The position numbers and the translations under genes were made by a program. From Verrucomicrobiota bacterium (GTDB taxonomy: Bacteria > Verrucomicrobiota > Verrucomicrobiia > Opitutales > Opitutaceae), in NCBI GenBank assembly GCA_030605125.1, contig JAUWBD010000011.1, forward strand, positions 1 through 44,838: a stretch of DNA of 44,838 nt. The letters are read 5' to 3'. Of this stretch, positions 33,565 to 44,330 are shown piece by piece. The notes beneath the pieces were generated by a model. It ran no database searches and was not told the DNA's origin. It saw only the letters and a program-made list of their open reading frames with translations. The stretch's first letter is position 1. The number at the start of each line of letters is the position of its first letter.

Positions 33565-35757
33565 ATGCTCGCGCCCCGCCTGTTCTCCCTTCCCCTGCTC
33601 GGTCTCGTCTGCCTCGCCTCGCCGCCTGTTGCCACCGGCGACACCGCCGCCCACTGGCGCTTCGAGGCTTCCGATCCCGCCGCGTCAACCGGTCCCGTGC
33701 TCAAGGCCATCGACACCGCTCCCGCCCTCGTTCCGCTTTCAACCCAAGGTCCCGGACGGTCCTTCCCCTCCGTGCTCGCCCATCCCGCGGTCCCAAACCA
33801 TGGTGCCGCGCTGCTGAACGGCCGCGGCCACTTCGAGGCCGCCCACCCCCCGGAGCTCCCGCTCGACGGCACCTTCACCATCGAGGCGCTGGTTCACCGC
33901 ACCCGCACCCACCAAGAATCCTCCTACATTGTTTCGCGTTGGGGATTCACCGGTCGCGAGGCTCGCTCCTGGGGCGTGGGCACCGCCGGAGGCCGCGGCC
34001 TCCCCGGAGTCCAAGCCCGGGAACTCTTCATGAACCTTAGCCCCGACGGTCGGGAAACCGTCACCGTCGGCTCCGGCCTCATCCTGGAAGACGGCGAAGA
34101 TTACTACATCTCCGTCACTTTCCAGGCCGGCGCCGAAAGCGGCTTCATCCGTTTCGAGGTCTGCAACCTCTCCGCGGCCGGCAGCCTGCAAAGCACCCAG
34201 CGCCACCACGCCATCGCGCGCCTCGCCGCGGTGGACGAACCCCTCCGCATCGGCGCCTTCGACAACGCGCGCTCCCGCTGGCCCGGCCTGCTCGACGAAA
34301 TTCGCGTCAGCGTCGGCGAAATCGGGGACTCCAGACGTCTGATCTCAGGCCTTCCCTCCGCGCCCACCCTTTCCCTCGCCCCCGTCATCGCCCCTTCCGA
34401 TCTGGCGATCCTCGAGAGCATCCCCTGGCCGTTTATCGGCACCATCCGCCCTCGCCCGGCCAGCGAGATCGCCGGCTCCTCCTGGTCCATCGGCGGCGAG
34501 ACGCTGGACCGCGAATTCACGCTCTACCGGCACTGGCGCGATCATCTCGGCCCCCTCGGCGCCAAACATCTCCGCCTCCAAGCCGGCTGGGCCCGCACCG
34601 AACGCGAGAAGGGCGTTTACGACTGGGCCTGGCTCGACGAACCCGTGCGCGACGCCCTCGCCCAGGGCGTCGCACCTTGGATCAACGTCTCCTACGGCAA
34701 CCCGATCTACCCCCAAGGCGGCGGCACCGGCCTGCACGCCACCGCCCCCGCCTCGCCCGAAGCCCTTGCCGCCTGGGATCGCTGGCTCGCCGCCATGGTC
34801 ACCCGCTACCGTGACGAGGTCACTACCTGGGAGATCTGGAACGAACCTGTCGGGCAAATCTCCGCCGAGGCCTACGCCGAGCTCTACCTCCGCTCCGCGA
34901 AAATCATCCGCGGCATTCAGCCCGACGCGCGTCTGATCGCCATCGCCTTCGCGGGCATCCAGCTGCCCTACGCCGAGACTCTCCTGCGTGTCGCCCGCGA
35001 CCGCGACCAGCTTCCCCTCATCGACGAAATCAGCTACCACGCCTACGTCTATGTTCCCGAATCCCACTACCCGCAGGTGGAGGCGCTCCGCTCACTGATC
35101 CGTCGCCACGATCCGCGCATCATCGTTCGTCAGGGCGAAAACGGCGCGCCCTCGGTCGGAGGCGGCTTCGGCGCCATCACCGGGCGCCCATGGACGGAGA
35201 ACAGCCAGGCGAAATGGAACCTCCGCCGCATGCTCGGAGACCACGGCCGCGACATCCCCAACAGTCTCTTCTCGATCGCGGACATGCATTATCCGAATCG
35301 GATCAACAACAAGGGTCTGCTCCTTTCCACGCGCCCCGACCGGACCGTCGAACGCCCGAAGCTCGCCTATCACGCCGCGCAGAACGTGTATTCAATTCTT
35401 GATGACAGCTTCGCGCTCGAGCCCTCCGCCTCCCACCGCACCGACCACCCTGAGCCCAACCGCCTTCAAGTCTTCGCCTACCGCCACCGCCGCTCCGGAC
35501 TAGGCCTCGCCACCGTCTGGCTCGGCGGACGCGAGATCGCCGAGTCCAACACGCTCACCCCCGTGAGCCTTACCCTGGAAAACCTCTCCTTTGTCCAACC
35601 TGTCTGGGTGGACCTGCGCACCGGCTCGGTGCACGCCATCCCGTCATCCGCCTGGACTGCGTCCCCCGGCGGGCAGGGGGTCACCTTCCTCGATCTCCCC
35701 ATATACGACTCGCCCATCCTCATCGCCAGTCGCGCCGACCTCCCCCTCGCCCCCTGA
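33565..35757 (+). CDS. Secreted LamG + clan GH-A glycosidase (GH39/GH5-like)
   Basis: This 730-residue protein has a signal peptide (RLFSLPLLGLVCLASPPVAT). Residues ~28-255 form a LamG/concanavalin-like domain (AAHWRFEASDPAASTGPVLK; GTFTIEALVHRTRTHQESSY; PLRIGAFDNARSRWPGLLDE). A TIM barrel follows: HLRLQAGWARTEREKGVYDW, TTWEIWNEPVGQISAE with acid/base Glu427, ISYHAYVYVPESHYPQ, and IIVRQGENGAPS with candidate nucleophile Glu525. WEIWNEP and the GEN motif fit retaining clan GH-A enzymes such as GH39. A C-terminal beta domain completes the protein. Downstream lie a tandem duplication at the stop and a symporter gene, so the pair may form a secretion-plus-import unit. Substrate unknown. Confidence 0.82.
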   Translation: MLAPRLFSLPLLGLVCLASPPVATGDTAAHWRFEASDPAASTGPVLKAIDTAPALVPLSTQGPGRSFPSVLAHPAVPNHGAALLNGRGHFEAAHPPELPLDGTFTIEALVHRTRTHQESSYIVSRWGFTGREARSWGVGTAGGRGLPGVQARELFMNLSPDGRETVTVGSGLILEDGEDYYISVTFQAGAESGFIRFEVCNLSAAGSLQSTQRHHAIARLAAVDEPLRIGAFDNARSRWPGLLDEIRVSVGEIGDSRRLISGLPSAPTLSLAPVIAPSDLAILESIPWPFIGTIRPRPASEIAGSSWSIGGETLDREFTLYRHWRDHLGPLGAKHLRLQAGWARTEREKGVYDWAWLDEPVRDALAQGVAPWINVSYGNPIYPQGGGTGLHATAPASPEALAAWDRWLAAMVTRYRDEVTTWEIWNEPVGQISAEAYAELYLRSAKIIRGIQPDARLIAIAFAGIQLPYAETLLRVARDRDQLPLIDEISYHAYVYVPESHYPQVEALRSLIRRHDPRIIVRQGENGAPSVGGGFGAITGRPWTENSQAKWNLRRMLGDHGRDIPNSLFSIADMHYPNRINNKGLLLSTRPDRTVERPKLAYHAAQNVYSILDDSFALEPSASHRTDHPEPNRLQVFAYRHRRSGLGLATVWLGGREIAESNTLTPVSLTLENLSFVQPVWVDLRTGSVHAIPSSAWTASPGGQGVTFLDLPIYDSPILIASRADLPLAP

Positions 35758-35790
35758 TCCCCGCGCCCCGCCCCCTGATCCCCGCGCCCC
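35749..35790 (+). repeat. 21-bp tandem duplication across a stop codon
   Basis: Two exact 21-base units (35749-35769 and 35770-35790), each containing CCCCTGATCCCCGCG. The first TGA is the stop of the glycosidase gene. It looks like a recent slippage duplication. Confidence 0.85.
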
Positions 35791-35803
35791 GCCCGCAGCT
35801 CTC

Positions 35804-35820
35804 TGCAACGCGGACCAAAA
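35804..35820. promoter_or_regulatory. Candidate LacI-type operator, copy 1
   Basis: TGCAACGCGGACCAAAA matches 16 of 17 bases with 38645-38661. The core is a partial palindrome of the form TTGNNNCGCGNNNCAA (CTG here), as in many LacI-family sites. It lies about 80 bases before the symporter start. Confidence 0.5.
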
Positions 35821-37566: not shown

Positions 37567-38604
37567 TCACCGCCCGCTCAGCGTCCTGCCCTCCACCCAA
37601 TCGCCCTCGAGCATCACCGCTTTCGCGTGCTCGGGCACGCCGCGCTCGTTGCGGTGGATCTGCGCCACCACCAGGTCCACCGCCGCCGCGCCCATCGCCC
37701 GAAACGGATGCCGCACCCCCGCGCACTCCGCCGTCGCCGCCCGCCAGCTCAAGGTCGCCACGCCCAGGTCCTCCGGCACGCGCCGCCCCGTGCGCAGGAT
37801 CAATTGGTAGATCTCCGGCAAGCCCGCCACCACCGCGTCGGGCTTGGCCCGGCCGAGCCACTCGTCCATCTGCGCCACCGTCCAGCTCTCGAAGATTTGC
37901 GGTTCCAGCCAACGCGCGGCCGGCAGCCTCGCCCGCCGGGCGTTAAACACCGTCAAAGGCACGTGCTCCATGCGCTCGTCCGTCAGTTGCGCCGTCGCGA
38001 AGCCGATCCGCCGATACCCGCGCGCATCCAGCTTTTCGATGACCAGCTGCATTGCGTGGTAATAGTGCAGGATCACGTGGTGGGTGAAGGGCGGATGAAA
38101 GGGCCGGCCGACCTGCGAGACCGGAAACTCCGCCCACGGAAACGCCAGCGGCTCCTTCGGCTTGTCCGCGGGAGCCAACACCACCCCGCCCACCTGCCGC
38201 GCCCGCAGCATCGACTCCAGCCGCTCCGCGCTCAGGCCTCGTCCATCCACGCGCAGACGATCCAGCCCGAAGCCCAGCTCCTCCGCCCGCCGTCTCGCCC
38301 CCTCCTCGATCAGCCCGCGCGGGTTCCAACCCTTGCGGAGAAAATACGCGGGATCATAGGGCATCACCCAGGCGAGGTTGCCCCGCCGCTCCGGACGCTG
38401 CCGCCTCACCCCCGTCAGCAAGGCCTGCATCAGCGGATTCGGCGCGTAGCCCAGCGCGCGGGCCGCCGCCCGCACGCGCTCCGCCTTTTCCGGCTTTATC
38501 CCGGTCATGCCGCGCAGCACGCGGGAAGCAGTGGACTTCGACACTCCCGCTCGCTCCGCAACCGCCATCAAGGAGACTCCCGCCGCTATGTGGCTCTCGC
38601 TCAT
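37567..38604 (-). CDS. LacI-family transcriptional regulator
   Basis: This 345-residue protein has a LacI HTH (SLMAVAERAGVSKSTASRVL; KAERVRAAARALGYAPNPLM) and an effector domain (VGGVVLAPADKPKEPLAFPW; LDARGYRRIGFATAQL; KPDAVVAGLPEIYQLILRTG; EDLGVATLSWRAATAECAGV). It belongs to the subgroup with an ALLTGVRRQRPERRGNLAWV linker, as does the decayed copy at 33170. Its divergent neighbour is the PEP-CTERM gene at 38707. The 17-bp candidate operator TGCAACGCGGGCCAAAA lies between them at 38645, and a second copy lies upstream of the symporter at 35804, so this protein probably represses both. The ATG at 38604 is used; an inner Met at residue 13 is a less likely start. Confidence 0.92.
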   Translation of the reverse strand: MSESHIAAGVSLMAVAERAGVSKSTASRVLRGMTGIKPEKAERVRAAARALGYAPNPLMQALLTGVRRQRPERRGNLAWVMPYDPAYFLRKGWNPRGLIEEGARRRAEELGFGLDRLRVDGRGLSAERLESMLRARQVGGVVLAPADKPKEPLAFPWAEFPVSQVGRPFHPPFTHHVILHYYHAMQLVIEKLDARGYRRIGFATAQLTDERMEHVPLTVFNARRARLPAARWLEPQIFESWTVAQMDEWLGRAKPDAVVAGLPEIYQLILRTGRRVPEDLGVATLSWRAATAECAGVRHPFRAMGAAAVDLVVAQIHRNERGVPEHAKAVMLEGDWVEGRTLSGR

Positions 38605-38644
38605 GCCTCAGGGTGTGCGGCCTGCGGCCGCCGAGTCGAGTTTT

Positions 38645-38661
38645 TGCAACGCGGGCCAAAA
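38645..38661. promoter_or_regulatory. Candidate LacI-type operator, copy 2
   Basis: TGCAACGCGGGCCAAAA, 16/17 identical to 35804-35820. With one more base on the left it forms TTGNNNCGCGNNNCAA. It sits in the divergent region between the LacI gene (start 38604) and the PEP-CTERM gene (start 38707). Confidence 0.55.
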
Positions 38662-38706: not shown

Positions 38707-39618
38707 ATGCCTTCAACCTCATCAACCCACCCCCGCGTCATCGGCGCGCTGCTGCTCGCCTGCACCGCCACCGCCGTCGTCTCCGGCCAGACCGTCGCCT
38801 ACTGGCGCTTCGAGGGCGACTCCACCGCCTTCCTCTCCGACTCCTCCGGCAACGGCCACACGCTCGCGCTCTTCAACAGCGTGCAGCAGACCACGCTCCC
38901 CTCCACCGGCGCCGGCTCCGCCTTTTTCGATCCAATTCCCCGAACCGGCGCGGCCAACCTCTCCGCCGCCCACAAGACCATCTATGGCGTGACCACCAAC
39001 GAGGCGTCCCGCACCTTCCTCCGCGCCGCCGATGCCGACGCCTTCACGAGCAACACCCTGACCGTGGAAGCGATGGTGAACTTCGCCCAGCGCCCCACCA
39101 CCAATACGCTCGTCTTCGTCGCCGGCCATTTCACCAGCACGGGCAATCAGCGCAGTTACGCGATGATCGTGAACAACCAGAGCAACCTGCTCGGCGTCGC
39201 GCTCTCGGCCGACGGCACCAACGCCACCCAATACTTCAGCGACTTCACCATCACCAACGGCAAGGACTACTACTTCGGCGTCTCCATCAATCTCACGGCC
39301 GCCACCGCCGAGGAACGCAGCGTCACCTTCTTCCTACAGAACCTCACCGACGGAGGCGAATTGCTTTCGCAGACCGTGACCGGCATCTCCCAATCCGCCC
39401 TCTTTAACGCCGCCAGCGCCTTCGGCATCGGCGCCCAAGGCAACGGAAACTCCTCGGAAAATTGGCGCGGCCTGATCGACGAGGTCCGCCTCAGCAACGG
39501 CATCCTCAGCTCCAACCAACTCCTCGTCGCCATCCCCGAGCCGTCCTCCGCCGCCGCCCTCCTTGGCCTCGCCGGCCTCGGCTTCGCCGCCACCCGCCGC
39601 CGCCGCGCCGCTTGCTGA
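38707..39618 (+). CDS. LamG-like PEP-CTERM protein
   Basis: This 303-residue protein has a signal peptide (RVIGALLLACTATAVVSGQT). A LamG/concanavalin-like domain follows (VAYWRFEGDSTAFLSDSSGN; LTVEAMVNFAQRPTTNTLVF; NWRGLIDEVRLSNGILSSNQ). The C-terminus carries the PEP-CTERM tail: VAIPEPSSAAALLGLAGLGF followed by TRRRRAAC. The sorting tail predicts exosortase handling and surface or matrix location; the LamG part suggests carbohydrate binding. It starts at the ATG at 38707, divergent from the LacI gene. The stop TGA (39616-39618) overlaps the next possible start ATG (39618) as TGATG, and a perfect terminator begins 39 bases later. Confidence 0.9.
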   Translation: MPSTSSTHPRVIGALLLACTATAVVSGQTVAYWRFEGDSTAFLSDSSGNGHTLALFNSVQQTTLPSTGAGSAFFDPIPRTGAANLSAAHKTIYGVTTNEASRTFLRAADADAFTSNTLTVEAMVNFAQRPTTNTLVFVAGHFTSTGNQRSYAMIVNNQSNLLGVALSADGTNATQYFSDFTITNGKDYYFGVSINLTAATAEERSVTFFLQNLTDGGELLSQTVTGISQSALFNAASAFGIGAQGNGNSSENWRGLIDEVRLSNGILSSNQLLVAIPEPSSAAALLGLAGLGFAATRRRRAAC

Positions 39619-41567
39619 TGTCCCTCACCCTGCCGTCCCCCGCGGCGCAAACCACTCGCCGCGTCCCTTGCGGGACGCGGCGTTTTTTCGCCGTTCTTCT
39701 CTCCATGATCGCCCCCGTTGCCCCGGCCGCCACCGCCGCTTGGGCACCGCTGCCCCCCACGCCGGCCGCCTCCATCGACATCGACGCCTTCACTGACGAG
39801 GAGGTCCTACCCGGCACCAACGCCGTCCACGGCCTGCCCTACGCGCTGCTCCACCTGCCCGTGCTCGCGAACGCCGTCGTGGCCGAAGGCCCGAACCGCG
39901 GCTTCATCGACGCCCGCCTCTGGCGTTGGGAAAAGGACAACCAGCCCCACAACGCCCGCGTGATGGAGAACATCGTCTCCCTCGGGTTTTTCTACACCGC
40001 CAAGCGCCCCTGGAATCCCCACCGCCGCTCGCCCGCCCTCCGCGCGCGCCTCGAGGCCGCGCTCGAGTTCTGGCTCGGCCTGCGCGACGCCCACGGTTTC
40101 TTCGCCGAGTATCGCCCCGGCGAGCGTAGCCTCGCCGCCACCGCCTTCGGCACGAAGTTCATGGCCCGCACGCTCGACCTCCTGCTCGACGACGCCGCGC
40201 CCATCGATCCCAATCTCCTCACCCGCGTCGTCGCCGCCCAAGGCGAAACGCTCCGCGCCTCCCTCGCCCGCGACGCCTTCCTGCGCGACGGCCGCTCTGT
40301 CACCAACCAATACGGCAACCTCTGGGGCGCCGCCCTCGCTCATCTCGCGCGCCATCCCGACCCCGCCCTGGAAGGCCTGCTGCGCGGCCGCATCGCCGAG
40401 GCCGGCCCGCTCTTCCAAAGCCCCGCCGGCTACTACTACGAGGCCAACGGACCAGACTGGGCCTACACCTTCGACACCCACCACACCAACCTCGAGCACC
40501 TCTGGCCGCGCGCCCGCCACCTCGATCTCGCCGCGACCTTCGTCGCCGAGGAAGTCCGCTGGACCGACTGGCTCGCCGACAACGCCGTGCTCGAGCCCGA
40601 CGGCTCCCGCTTCGTGCTCAACCGCGCCATCGAGACCCGCCGCCGCCAAGGCGAGCTCGCGCACCTCGACTCCCCCTTCGCCGAGATCGTGCCGCTCCTG
40701 CGCGCCTTCTCGCGCACCCAGGCCGAAGCCGCCGCCGAGGCCGCCGCCCTCCGCGCCGCCTGGCGCGCCTCGCTCCCCGAGGGGCCTCGCCTCGACCTGC
40801 ACCCGTCCACCATGAACGGCTACCGCCCCTACATGGTGATGAAGGAGCCCGGCACCGTCTGGCGCCCCGACGACGCCCAGCGCGCCGCCGCCCGCGCCAC
40901 CCTGCCCTACCTCGCCCGCGATCGCTACACCCGCCAGCGCGCCGACGATCGCCACCCCTTCGTCTTCACCTACGTGCGCCGCCCGGCCTACTACGCCGCC
41001 TTCAACGCCGGCCGCCCGCTCTCCGCCCAACAACGCCTCGGCCTCGGCCTCCTCTGGCACCCGAGCCTCGGCTCGATCCTGCAAACCCAGACCGCCTCGG
41101 AGTCCGGCGGCACGCGCGGCACCGGACGCCAGGTGGACGAGGCCTCCGAGGTCCTCGCCACCTACGCCGTCGCCGGCCGTCCGCACTCCCCGGCCACCGG
41201 CTCCCACGATTTGCCGACCGGCGACCTCGTCGCAACCTATCCCCTGAAGGCCGGCGGGGAAAAGCGTATTCACTTCGGCGATACGTCCATCTCCGTCGAA
41301 GTCCGCCGCCCGGGCGCCTTCACCGAGAGCCTGCCGCTCCTCGTCCCCGCCGATGCGCGCATCACCAGCGGCCCCGGCGCCTGGCAATGGACCGACGCCC
41401 GTGGCCAGGGCCTGCGCGTCACCTACGACTCCGCCAAGATCACCCTCGCCGCCCCCGAGGCCACCGTCGCCGGCAAACCCCTCCGCCCCCTCGTCCTCCA
41501 CGCCAAGGACCGCCTGAGCTACCAGATTACCCCCTTGGTCGCCGCCCCGACTCCGCTCCGCCGATAG
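39618..41567 (+). CDS. Secreted alpha/alpha-toroid protein, possible polysaccharide lyase
   Basis: From the ATG at 39618 this is a 649-residue protein with a long leader whose hydrophobic core is FFAVLLSMIAPVAPAATA. The only later ATG (39705) would destroy the signal peptide, yet a perfect terminator (39657-39688) lies within the leader codons. The mature part has toroid helices (PYALLHLPVLANAVVAEGPN; RVMENIVSLGFFYTAKRPWN; ARLEAALEFWLGLRDAHGFF), then GYYYEANGPDWAYTFDTHHT with NLEHLW, which looks like an active-site loop with Tyr, His and Asn. A beta-sandwich follows (ISVEVRRPGAFTESLPLLVP). The order toroid then beta-sandwich resembles PL8/PL15/heparinase II-type lyases, but I see no family-specific motif. 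It is probably exported and carbohydrate-active. Confidence in the fold is moderate. Confidence 0.65.
   Translation: MSLTLPSPAAQTTRRVPCGTRRFFAVLLSMIAPVAPAATAAWAPLPPTPAASIDIDAFTDEEVLPGTNAVHGLPYALLHLPVLANAVVAEGPNRGFIDARLWRWEKDNQPHNARVMENIVSLGFFYTAKRPWNPHRRSPALRARLEAALEFWLGLRDAHGFFAEYRPGERSLAATAFGTKFMARTLDLLLDDAAPIDPNLLTRVVAAQGETLRASLARDAFLRDGRSVTNQYGNLWGAALAHLARHPDPALEGLLRGRIAEAGPLFQSPAGYYYEANGPDWAYTFDTHHTNLEHLWPRARHLDLAATFVAEEVRWTDWLADNAVLEPDGSRFVLNRAIETRRRQGELAHLDSPFAEIVPLLRAFSRTQAEAAAEAAALRAAWRASLPEGPRLDLHPSTMNGYRPYMVMKEPGTVWRPDDAQRAAARATLPYLARDRYTRQRADDRHPFVFTYVRRPAYYAAFNAGRPLSAQQRLGLGLLWHPSLGSILQTQTASESGGTRGTGRQVDEASEVLATYAVAGRPHSPATGSHDLPTGDLVATYPLKAGGEKRIHFGDTSISVEVRRPGAFTESLPLLVPADARITSGPGAWQWTDARGQGLRVTYDSAKITLAAPEATVAGKPLRPLVLHAKDRLSYQITPLVAAPTPLRR
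39657..39688 (+). terminator. Perfect intrinsic terminator inside the leader codons of the next gene
   Basis: CGCCGCGTCCC (39657-39667) pairs perfectly with GGGACGCGGCG (39672-39682) around TTGC, followed by TTTTTT. It lies 39 bases after the PEP-CTERM stop. It also encodes the RRVPCGTRRFF part of the next protein's leader. Confidence 0.93.
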
Positions 41568-41666
41568 CCGCAGGGCGCCCCCGACCGCCGCCCTCGTTCT
41601 CAGGAACGAACACAGCCCGCCATTCCTTTTCTCCACGTCTTCGCGCAGGCTGCGGCTCCCCTCTTC

Positions 41667-44330
41667 ATGCGTCCCCTACGCCGCCTCGCCCCGCTCCTCG
41701 CTCTCGCTTTGCTCGCTGGCCCCGCCGCCGCCGCGCCCTTCGCCGGACAGGAAAAACGTCCCACGCTCCCGCTCCCGCGCGTCGCGATCCCCGACGGACC
41801 CGCGCTCCCGCCCACCGTCATCACGGCCGGCGGGCAGAAACTCCTCCTCGCCCACCTCGCCGACTCCGGCCTCTCCGTCCGCTGGGACGCCGCCACCGGC
41901 ACCCTCGAGACCAACCGCCCCGGCTGGTGGCTCATCAACTACCCGCTCGACCAGATCGCCGAGCTCCCCGCCGACGCCGCCGCGCGCGAGGCCATCCTCG
42001 CCCGCCTCCTCGGCCGCCCCTCCGTCGAAGGCTTGAAAAATTGGTATCTGCGCACCCCGCCCTGCGCCGAGCGCCCCGCCGCCGCCGAGCCGCCCGCGCC
42101 CACCGGCCCCGCCCCCGTCGTCCCGCACCCCGCGCCCACGCTGATCGTGGATGCCTCCGCGCCCGAGGCCTCCGGCTCCGCCTCGCCCTTCCGCAGCATC
42201 CAGGCCGCCGTCCGCCGCGCCCAGCCCGGCGACGTCATCCAAGTCCGCCCCGGCATCTACCGCGAGACCATCGCCCCCACCACCGCCGGCACGCCCGAGA
42301 ACCCCATCGTCCTCGAAGGCCTCCGCTCGCCCGACGGTCGCCTGCCGATCATCAGCGGCAACGCCGCCCCGCCCGCCGACGCCTGGCGCCCCGTGCCCGG
42401 TCACCCCGGCCTCTGGCACGCCGACCACTGGACGCCCGGCCCCGGCGAGCTCGCCCTCGACGGCCGCGTGCTCCGCGAGCGCACGCTCCTCTCCGAACTC
42501 GCCGACTACGAGTTCGTGCAACTGCGCGCCGACCGCGCCCTCATCGAGCCCCCCGCCAATCCCGCCGCGCAATCGCCCCGCCCCGGCGACCGCGCCCTCG
42601 GCCTCACTTGGCGCCACGTGCCCACCGACGACGAAGGCTTCCTCCAGTTTGGCGACACCCGCGGCCTCTTCTTCGCCTCCTCCTGGGTCTGGCTCGACCC
42701 CGTGCGCGGCGAGGAGTGGGACCCGCGTTTCCCCGCCCCCGTCACCGGCCAGATCTGGCTCGGCGGCGGCTTCCGCGCCGGCCGCCAGACCGGCTCGCCC
42801 TTCCACCAGCAACTCAATCCCTACCGCGTCTGGGTAAACGGCGAGATCCAGCCCGCCTACGGGATCGCCGGCACCGCCAAGCCCGAGCCCAATCGCCGCG
42901 ACACCGGTGACATGTGGAGCCGCCTCCCCTTCCGCGAAGGTTGGAACCACGTCGTCCTCCTGCTCGACTCCACCGTCCGCCCCGAGCTCGACCACCGCAT
43001 CCGTTTCCCCCTGCCCCGCGGCCGGCCCGCCACGCCCTCGCAAGCCGTCGCTCCCGCGGATCGCTCCAAACCGCCCGCCGCCGACGCGCCTCGCGTCCGC
43101 TACCTGCGCGAGTGGACCGTGCTCGGCCCCTTCCCCGCCGAGACGCCCGCCCGCGGCATCTACCTCCGCGTCCCCGCCGGCGAGAACCCCAACCAGCTCC
43201 CGCTCGACATGGGCGCGCGCGAACTCCTCGCCCACCTCAACCAGCCGCACTGGATCGTGCGCGGCCTCGAATTCCGCAACGGCGCCCAGACCCAGCAAAA
43301 AGCGCAGGTCCTCGTCGAGGCCCCCGGCGTCACCATCGCGCACTGCCGCTTCGTGCAGCCTGAGGTCCGCGCGCTCAGCTACTACGTGCGCAGCCCCGCC
43401 TTCACGCCCGAATCGCCCTTCGTCGTCATCCGCGACAACTGGGTGCACTCCACCGGCGCGCTCGGCATGGGCGCCACCGGCTCCTCCCAGCACCTCACCG
43501 CCGACAACGTCAACGCCCCGACCCGCCGCGGCCGCCTGCTCGTCGAGCACAACCACATCTTCGACAACAACCGCAACGGCTACGAACGCTTCGACGAATC
43601 CGGCGCGATGAAGTTCTTCCGCCTCACCGGCTCCATCATCCGCCACAACACCTTCGTCGCCGGCGACGGCCCCGCGCTCTGGCTCGATTGGGAGCACTAC
43701 AACAACCGCCTCGAAGGCAACCTCATGCTCGACCCCATCGCCTGGGCCGTCGGCGTCGAGGCCTCGCCCGGCCCCAATCTCGTGGCCAACAACATCAGCA
43801 TCGACCGCCGCCCCGGCGGCACCTGGTTCGAGTTTGCCCTCCTCTCGTGGAACAGCGCCCGCACCTGGACCGCGCACAACACGATCGACACCGGTCGCAA
43901 CGGCAATCCCGGCGGTCGCGGCATCTACCTCGGCCAGGGCAACGACACCGGCCGCGGTCACTTCTGGGAGCCGCTACCCGAGCGCGCCGGCGCCTCGGTC
44001 AACAACCTCGTCGTGCGAACCGCCCGCCCGGTCGAGACGCGCCACCTCGGCCCCGATGACGGCACGCTCGTGCACCCCGCCTCCGACCGCCGTCCGCCCC
44101 CGGGCTTTGGCGAGCCCGCCGCCGGCAAGGGTGTGAAAGCGGTGCGCATCCAAACCAACGGCGAGGAGCTTGAGCTGCTCTCGCTCGTGCGCCACGATTT
44201 CAACGGCCTGCTCCGCCACCCCGGCGACCCACGAGCCCCCGGCGCCTACCGCATCGAGCCCGCGCCGGCCGACGGCGCGCGCATGCAGCTCGAGGCCGAG
44301 TTCGCCGATGGCACGCTCCTGCGCCGCTGA
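41667..44330 (+). CDS. Secreted right-handed beta-helix protein (copy 3, longer form)
   Basis: This 887-residue protein has a signal peptide (LAPLLALALLAGPAAAAPFA). After ~150 residues comes the DUF1565-like start: PTLIVDASAPEASGSASPFR, SIQAAVRRAQPGDVIQVRPG, then YRETIAPTTAGTPENPIVLE. A middle insert (ADAWRPVPGHPGLWHADHWT) and a beta-sandwich precede beta-helix rungs (PHWIVRGLEFRNGAQTQQKA; GVTIAHCRFVQPEVRALSYY; NHIFDNNRNGYERFDESGAM; GSIIRHNTFVAGDGPALWLD). The split arrangement, with an insert between the cap and the helix, differs from copies 1 and 2 and resembles GH141-like proteins, but this is not certain. The N-terminal ~120 residues have no known domain. It starts 99 bases after the toroid gene and may be co-transcribed with it. 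Extracellular polysaccharide breakdown is inferred. Confidence 0.75.
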   Translation: MRPLRRLAPLLALALLAGPAAAAPFAGQEKRPTLPLPRVAIPDGPALPPTVITAGGQKLLLAHLADSGLSVRWDAATGTLETNRPGWWLINYPLDQIAELPADAAAREAILARLLGRPSVEGLKNWYLRTPPCAERPAAAEPPAPTGPAPVVPHPAPTLIVDASAPEASGSASPFRSIQAAVRRAQPGDVIQVRPGIYRETIAPTTAGTPENPIVLEGLRSPDGRLPIISGNAAPPADAWRPVPGHPGLWHADHWTPGPGELALDGRVLRERTLLSELADYEFVQLRADRALIEPPANPAAQSPRPGDRALGLTWRHVPTDDEGFLQFGDTRGLFFASSWVWLDPVRGEEWDPRFPAPVTGQIWLGGGFRAGRQTGSPFHQQLNPYRVWVNGEIQPAYGIAGTAKPEPNRRDTGDMWSRLPFREGWNHVVLLLDSTVRPELDHRIRFPLPRGRPATPSQAVAPADRSKPPAADAPRVRYLREWTVLGPFPAETPARGIYLRVPAGENPNQLPLDMGARELLAHLNQPHWIVRGLEFRNGAQTQQKAQVLVEAPGVTIAHCRFVQPEVRALSYYVRSPAFTPESPFVVIRDNWVHSTGALGMGATGSSQHLTADNVNAPTRRGRLLVEHNHIFDNNRNGYERFDESGAMKFFRLTGSIIRHNTFVAGDGPALWLDWEHYNNRLEGNLMLDPIAWAVGVEASPGPNLVANNISIDRRPGGTWFEFALLSWNSARTWTAHNTIDTGRNGNPGGRGIYLGQGNDTGRGHFWEPLPERAGASVNNLVVRTARPVETRHLGPDDGTLVHPASDRRPPPGFGEPAAGKGVKAVRIQTNGEELELLSLVRHDFNGLLRHPGDPRAPGAYRIEPAPADGARMQLEAEFADGTLLRR

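Follow-up and report, generated by a model that had tools for sequence, protein, structure and literature searches.

A PEP-CTERM gene terminator within the apparent start of the following gene in a bacterium of the Opitutaceae

A terminator hairpin at the junction of two genes

The DNA analyzed here, referred to as the window, is a stretch of 44,838 nucleotides (nt) from a Verrucomicrobiota bacterium of the family Opitutaceae (assembly GCA_030605125.1, contig JAUWBD010000011.1, positions 1 to 44,838). Our subject is a hairpin followed by a run of T residues at the junction of two plus-strand genes. The upstream gene (38707 to 39618) encodes a surface protein with a Laminin_G_3 domain and a PEP-CTERM end (PF13385 and PF07589, both above the cut-off). 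The downstream open reading frame (ORF) would span positions 39618 to 41567 if it begins with an ATG at 39618; the first-pass annotation had called its product a "toroid" and lyase-like protein. Next on the plus strand is a gene (41667 to 44330) whose product gives a weak right-handed beta-helix match (PF13229, E 6.4e-4, below the cut-off). A LacI-family regulator (PF00356, E 1.6e-13; PF13377, E 4.8e-10) is encoded on the minus strand at 37567 to 38604.

The hairpin occupies positions 39657 to 39682 of the plus strand and has a perfect 11-bp stem (arms 39657-39667 and 39672-39682), with G-C at 10 of the 11 pairs and TTGC as the loop. It is followed directly by a U-tract, TTTTTT (39683-39688). 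The element thus combines a GC-rich stem with an immediate U-tract on the transcribed strand, the hallmarks of an intrinsic terminator. Its stem, its six T residues, and its coordinates (39657 to 39688) were all as first annotated. So was the plus-strand sequence TGATG at 39616 to 39620, in which the TGA stop codon of the PEP-CTERM gene and the ATG at 39618, a possible start of the next gene, have one A in common.

The isolated element had a predicted folding energy of -25.0 kcal/mol (z = -4.65), and none of 200 shuffled sequences was equally stable. We defined a strict terminator as a perfect stem of at least 9 bp with at least five T in 8 nt. Four strict sites were found on the plus strand of the window and none on the minus strand; a looser scan returned weak terminator-like sites on the minus strand elsewhere in the window. 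When the 30-residue leader peptide was recoded with the codon usage of six window genes, a stem of at least 11 bp plus at least five T in 8 nt arose in 580 of 100,000 trials, so the hairpin is not forced by the protein. Membership in a repeat family was ruled out, as the hairpin search pattern has a single copy in the genome, and a search of the whole window against Rfam at gathering thresholds gave no match. The hairpin is real and above chance expectation, with the sequence features of an intrinsic terminator.

Terminators at the ends of PEP-CTERM genes

We surveyed the 3' ends of other PEP-CTERM genes in the same genome, which has 74 PEP-CTERM matches at E ≤0.1, 59 of them above the cut-off. 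Strict terminators that start no more than 120 nt past the stop codon were present at 16 of the 72 ends examined, including that in the window, and began 20 to 54 nt beyond it; the window hairpin, with a gap of 38 nt, falls inside this range. Control windows inside PEP-CTERM genes contained none (0 of 72), and those on the opposite strand contained two (2 of 71). The surveyed loci of this genome (243 kb) held 27 strict sites in total on both strands. Similar numbers came from 14 genomes of relatives in the same genus, with strict terminators at 25 of 68 sampled PEP-CTERM ends (gap of 20 to 48 nt). Control windows in these relatives gave 0 of 25 within the genes and, for the opposite strand, 4 of 68. 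Two other hairpins in the window's own genome, on contig C172 and at C30:26621, resemble that of the window. Since most ends were without a strict terminator (56 of 72 in the own genome and 43 of 68 in the genus) and the survey covered PEP-CTERM genes alone, we make no claim that these genes are special in this respect. These results indicate that the window hairpin is the PEP-CTERM gene's own terminator and a member of a recurring class. Judged by titles and the opening parts of abstracts, no paper on PEP-CTERM and terminators concerned the terminators of PEP-CTERM genes, and a search for Opitutaceae, PEP-CTERM, polysaccharide, and operon yielded no paper.

In 6 of the 16 terminator cases from the same genome, a probable same-strand gene begins 14 to 52 nt beyond the stem, with the window measured from an ATG at 39705 and the GTG start at one locus (L076) being our own choice. 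Pfam matches were obtained for four of the other five closely following genes: GH130, an MFS_2 sugar transporter, a melibiase-like match below the cut-off, and FlgD_ig, this last gene also having a CBM9 match below the cut-off. A spacing of 14 to 52 nt leaves scant or zero space for a promoter, and read-through would be the simplest source of mRNA for these genes.

The same junctions bear on a plainer explanation, in which the hairpin is an ordinary gene-end terminator, the frame from 39618 arose by chance, and translation of the downstream gene begins at 39705 with a signal peptide that is lost or unusual. Expression would then come from a weak promoter of its own, from read-through, or not at all. 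In each of the five other tightly spaced pairs, the next gene is able to start past the U-tract, and some of the accidental frames there also read FF across it. Mechanically called ORFs of at least 60 amino acids run through 12 of the 41 PEP-CTERM terminators, including that in the window, and 6 of the 41 have an ATG; in the GC-rich DNA here, open frames across terminators of this kind are common. Poor codon usage in the leader, described below, fits the plainer explanation as well. Against it stands the N terminus that a start at 39705 would give, MIAPVAPAATAAW, which has no charged n-region and a hydrophobic core (1.62) below those of all ten homologs compared (2.16 to 3.51). We consider this explanation unlikely. 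An ATG that overlaps the PEP-CTERM stop codon is rarer than an open frame, occurring at 4 of 140 ends and in the form TGATG at 2 of them, the window and a locus designated L164. At another locus (L064, G000:C147), an ATG lies inside the terminator loop about 21 to 50 nt past the PEP-CTERM stop, in frame with the next gene, and reads MRRSAFFSLN; a better start lies further on.

The region upstream of the PEP-CTERM gene suggests how the junction might be transcribed. A LacI-type operator-like palindrome, TTTTGCAACGCGGGCCAAAA (38642 to 38661, plus strand), lies between the divergent LacI-family and PEP-CTERM genes, with its core at 38645 to 38661. A second operator-like site, TGCAACGCGGACCAAAA (35804 to 35820, plus strand), lies upstream of a sodium/solute symporter gene. 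Only two sites in the 4.88-Mb assembly match the core, TGCAACGCGGNCCAAAA, perfectly, and they are the two window sites before the symporter and PEP-CTERM genes. The core was derived from these two sites, and the informative part is that there is no further match in the genome. There were no sites with one mismatch and five with two, the same number as for a reversed-pattern control. No copy was found upstream of the downstream ORF or the beta-helix gene in the perfect-core genome search. One upstream promoter may serve the genes on both sides of the hairpin: these are on the same strand, operator-like sites occur upstream only, and positions 39478 to 39704 contain no TATA-like element. The locus looks like one LacI-controlled unit with putative operators. 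Just ahead of the second operator-like site, at 35751 to 35795, is a short GC-rich tandem repeat of units resembling CCCCTGATCCCCGCGCCCCGCC by eye.

We favor, with a probability of about 0.6, the explanation that an operon-internal terminator lowers the output of the downstream genes relative to that of the PEP-CTERM protein. A LacI-family repressor would bind and control a promoter ahead of the PEP-CTERM gene. Most transcripts from this promoter would stop at about 39688 and yield the PEP-CTERM protein alone, and a minority would read through and also give the enzyme-like downstream protein and the beta-helix protein. The terminator would in this way fix the ratio of the PEP-CTERM protein to the downstream proteins. 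At the window locus it would, in addition, overlap the signal-peptide codons of the downstream gene, so that any mRNA for the downstream protein would have to include the terminator.

The start and relatives of the downstream gene

Whether the downstream mRNA includes the terminator depends on the start codon. Between 39618 and 39708, the only in-frame ATG, GTG, or TTG codons are those at 39618 and 39705 (39705-39707, plus strand), and the annotation of the latter as the sole later ATG was correct. Its companion claim, that a start at 39705 would cost the protein the charged part and most of its signal peptide, agrees with the composition of the resulting N terminus. The best 9-residue hydropathy is 1.62 from 39705 and 2.76 from 39618, which lies within the range of 2.16 to 3.51 seen in ten homolog signal peptides. 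From 39681 to 39740 (plus strand), the frame from 39618 reads the signal-peptide-like RFFAVLLSMIAPVAPAATAA, up to a nearly invariant Trp42. The U-tract is read as part of Arg-Phe-Phe and, together with the tail, gives RFFAVLLSM. When this peptide was compared with the signal peptides of 16 homologs, whose start codons were picked by eye, it ranked first of 110 stop-free tail readings by all three scores. Local alignments with three homologs (L005, L007, and L012) reach into it. We consider it likely that the U-tract is translated. Since the signal peptide needs the one other in-frame start, at 39618, an mRNA for the complete protein would contain the whole terminator no matter which promoter is used, and the complete downstream protein probably depends on read-through transcripts.

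Homologs of the downstream protein were found in 11 of 252 genomes of the family, 6 of 384 of the class, and 5 of 387 of the phylum, in overlapping draws that each include the window's own genome. They form a family of clear homologs with about 35 to 50% identity. The protein itself had no match in Pfam or NCBIfam. Among 16 family members, two weak Pfam matches were obtained, each in one member (E 0.033 and 0.1), and a profile search of the family against the PDB gave none up to E = 1. A two-sequence AlphaFold model, poor at a mean predicted local distance difference test score of 39.5, has helices first and strands later. These results neither confirm nor exclude the labels "toroid" and "lyase." A search of viral contigs found no relative, and a search of genome contigs found one, L022. 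One homolog, L018 (G159:C1:1995448-1997337), has a single in-frame TGA and may be a pseudogene or contain a sequencing error.

Loci of the homologs differ from the window in arrangement. A terminator-like site near the start was found at 2 of 18 other homolog loci, several of which are cut by contig ends; that in L006 lies downstream of the start of the match, and that in L016 is weak. None was found in L167, L168, L171, L093, L094, or L019. A PEP-CTERM end occurs at a distance in L008 (1041 nt upstream) and L094 (824 nt upstream), and the available upstream sequence is short in L019 (51 nt), L093 (173 nt), and L168 (257 nt). In L094 and L171, the frame remains open upstream for 270 and 500 codons, respectively, indicating that a plain signal peptide at this position is not universal among the homologs. 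Four of eight homologs from the same genus (L005, L010, L011, and L012) have the sequence TATAG 56 to 58 nt ahead of the start codon, which is a possible promoter element; no TATAG-type element is present at 39478 to 39704 in the window. In addition, alignment places the start codons of L005 and L012 at 39663 to 39665, within the hairpin. Taken together with the lack, in the motif screen of 18 homologs described below, of a homolog directly behind a PEP-CTERM end, these two differences suggest that the downstream gene may have come recently under the promoter of the PEP-CTERM gene.

The same alignment would fit a recent rearrangement scar at the junction, in which the PEP-CTERM gene and its terminator were fused to the 5' end of the downstream gene and replaced its start codon and promoter, leaving an overlap of terminator and coding sequence that has no regulatory role. 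As this explanation would have it, no PEP-CTERM end was found immediately ahead of any of the 18 homologs whose upstream sequence is long enough. Of 16 homolog genes, three have TTTTTT within their first 120 nt, L005 and L012 at the signal-peptide position that it has in the window and L013 elsewhere, and the T run at the shared position could be the joint. However, TTTTTT is missing from the closest relatives of L005 and L012, so the run is not clearly inherited, and no locus in a prerearrangement state was found. A scar appears highly improbable to us. For the T run itself, we had considered inheritance from a common ancestor, and descent is unsupported by these nearest relatives.

Several results weigh against an operon-internal terminator that sets the output of the downstream gene. 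No close ortholog of the downstream protein was found in the family, class, and phylum draws, the best match having 50% identity. A motif screen, which can miss divergent ends, detected no PEP-CTERM end immediately ahead of any of the 18 homologs for which 800 nt or more of upstream sequence is available. In hydropathy, the window frame ranked 5th of 123 tails, and tails of U-tracts are often hydrophobic. Among 29-codon windows, the leader falls at the 5th percentile for codon usage. However, over its first 29 codons the LacI gene scores below the leader, and the beta-helix gene scores about the same, so codon usage is indecisive for the choice of start. Finally, a sigma-70 scan predicted no promoter from 36 to 44.8 kb, including 39618 to 41667; being empty across the entire region it is uninformative, and it leaves room for an internal promoter.

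Ribosome position, read-through, and known systems

The first-pass annotation had proposed that ribosomes translating through the coupled start unfold the hairpin, making expression of the downstream gene dependent on translation of the PEP-CTERM protein. The terminator on which this proposal was built is real, and its U-tract is probably coding; translation from the coupled start might open the hairpin. In such an attenuator, a ribosome finishing the PEP-CTERM gene would block the hairpin by reinitiating at TGATG while following RNA polymerase closely. In a variant, a ribosome over about 39605 to 39633 would free 39641 to 39647 for an antiterminator. Either way, the downstream gene would be expressed only upon translation of the PEP-CTERM gene.

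The window has the TGATG and the open frame through the hairpin that this mechanism calls for, as well as three mutually exclusive helices on the plus strand. A possible upstream hairpin (39605 to 39648, pairing 39605-39611 with 39642-39648, -14.7 kcal/mol) excludes a possible 7-bp antiterminator (39641 to 39663, pairing 39641-39647 with 39657-39663, -11.4 kcal/mol), which in turn excludes the terminator. A 7-bp antiterminator was reached in 2.5% of 200 shuffles of the gap. With the upstream hairpin hidden, folding predictions give the antiterminator as long as the right arm of the terminator is incomplete. Once that arm is complete, however, the terminator is the minimum-energy fold whether the upstream hairpin is hidden or not (-27.5 kcal/mol when hidden).

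Measurements in Escherichia coli, as reported in one study (PMC4824070), bear on the distances involved. A terminator lying more than about 27 to 30 nt past a stop codon works at its full efficiency of about 0.9, whereas placement 30 bp past a start codon costs only about 10%. In the window, the hairpin begins 38 nt after the stop codon, beyond the 27- to 30-nt reach of a ribosome at that codon, and 36 nt after the ATG at 39618. A terminator in later coding sequence drops to 40% efficiency in the same study, which favors an effect of translation. Gating is limited there by slow de novo initiation, and reinitiation at TGATG could bypass this step and place a ribosome nearer to the polymerase, making gating possible. 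On the whole, these measurements, taken by analogy, argue against strong gating (PMC4824070). A further cost is that a strong start at 39618 would turn every terminated transcript into a non-stop mRNA.

A second TGATG junction was found at L164 (G013:C43, positions 280 to 370), in another genome of the genus. There, a coupled ORF of 20 codons, MLEGAFDLSPGGGVIRRPFS, crosses a PEP-CTERM terminator and stops just past the U-tract, and a GH67 gene follows. Among the 41 terminator-bearing ends, a 7-bp antiterminator occurs in two only, the same TGATG pair (window and L164). The order of helices in L164 appears to differ and would imply the opposite logic, and the association was noticed post hoc; for these reasons, we did not use the coincidence as evidence for a shared mechanism. 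Overall, we regard translation gating at the window locus as rather unlikely. More doubtful still is a general version for the genus, in which terminators spanning the coupled start of the following gene would act in PEP-CTERM operons as ribosome-sensing switches, with one stretch of RNA serving as both U-tract and signal-peptide code and rival hairpins reporting the completed translation of a surface protein.

If an operon-internal terminator does set the ratio of products, it offers a testable account of how bacteria that carry PEP-CTERM genes by the dozen might obtain much surface protein and little downstream protein from one promoter. The junction also carries a warning for annotation. 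A GC-rich terminator may be translated in silico as RR...FF, which mimics the start of a signal peptide, and gene starts behind terminators need to be annotated with caution.

The element shares its stem, loop, U-tract, distance from the stop codon, and strand asymmetry with ordinary gene-end intrinsic terminators, but unlike these, it lies inside what looks like the beginning of the next coding sequence. Like the E. coli pyrBI attenuator (PMC4824070), it is a terminator within a possible translated leader frame, where the position of a ribosome could decide termination. In pyrBI, however, the frame encodes a leader peptide of its own and has pause sites, whereas the window frame continues into the next protein. 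In the window, this frame is open and signal-peptide-like, yet frames of this kind cross 12 of 41 terminators, and the start at 39618 is putative. As for a trp-type attenuator, the 7-bp antiterminator would form before the right arm if the upstream hairpin is hidden, and the terminator later wins by energy.

A closer parallel is provided by operons of Clostridia, in which, as reported (PMC9045158), internal terminators behind binding-protein genes set product ratios, with efficiencies of 20.7 to 96.1%. The terminator type with more than five U residues exceeded 90%, which suggests that the window terminator would be strong. As in the ATP-binding cassette importers of Ruminiclostridium cellulolyticum described there, a stem-loop follows a surface-exposed protein that comes first in a carbohydrate operon, and same-strand genes lie downstream of it. 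The window differs from R. cellulolyticum in that its U-tract overlaps signal-peptide-like codons and its first gene encodes a PEP-CTERM protein. By this analogy, the window element looks most like the operon-internal ratio terminators of Clostridia (PMC9045158).

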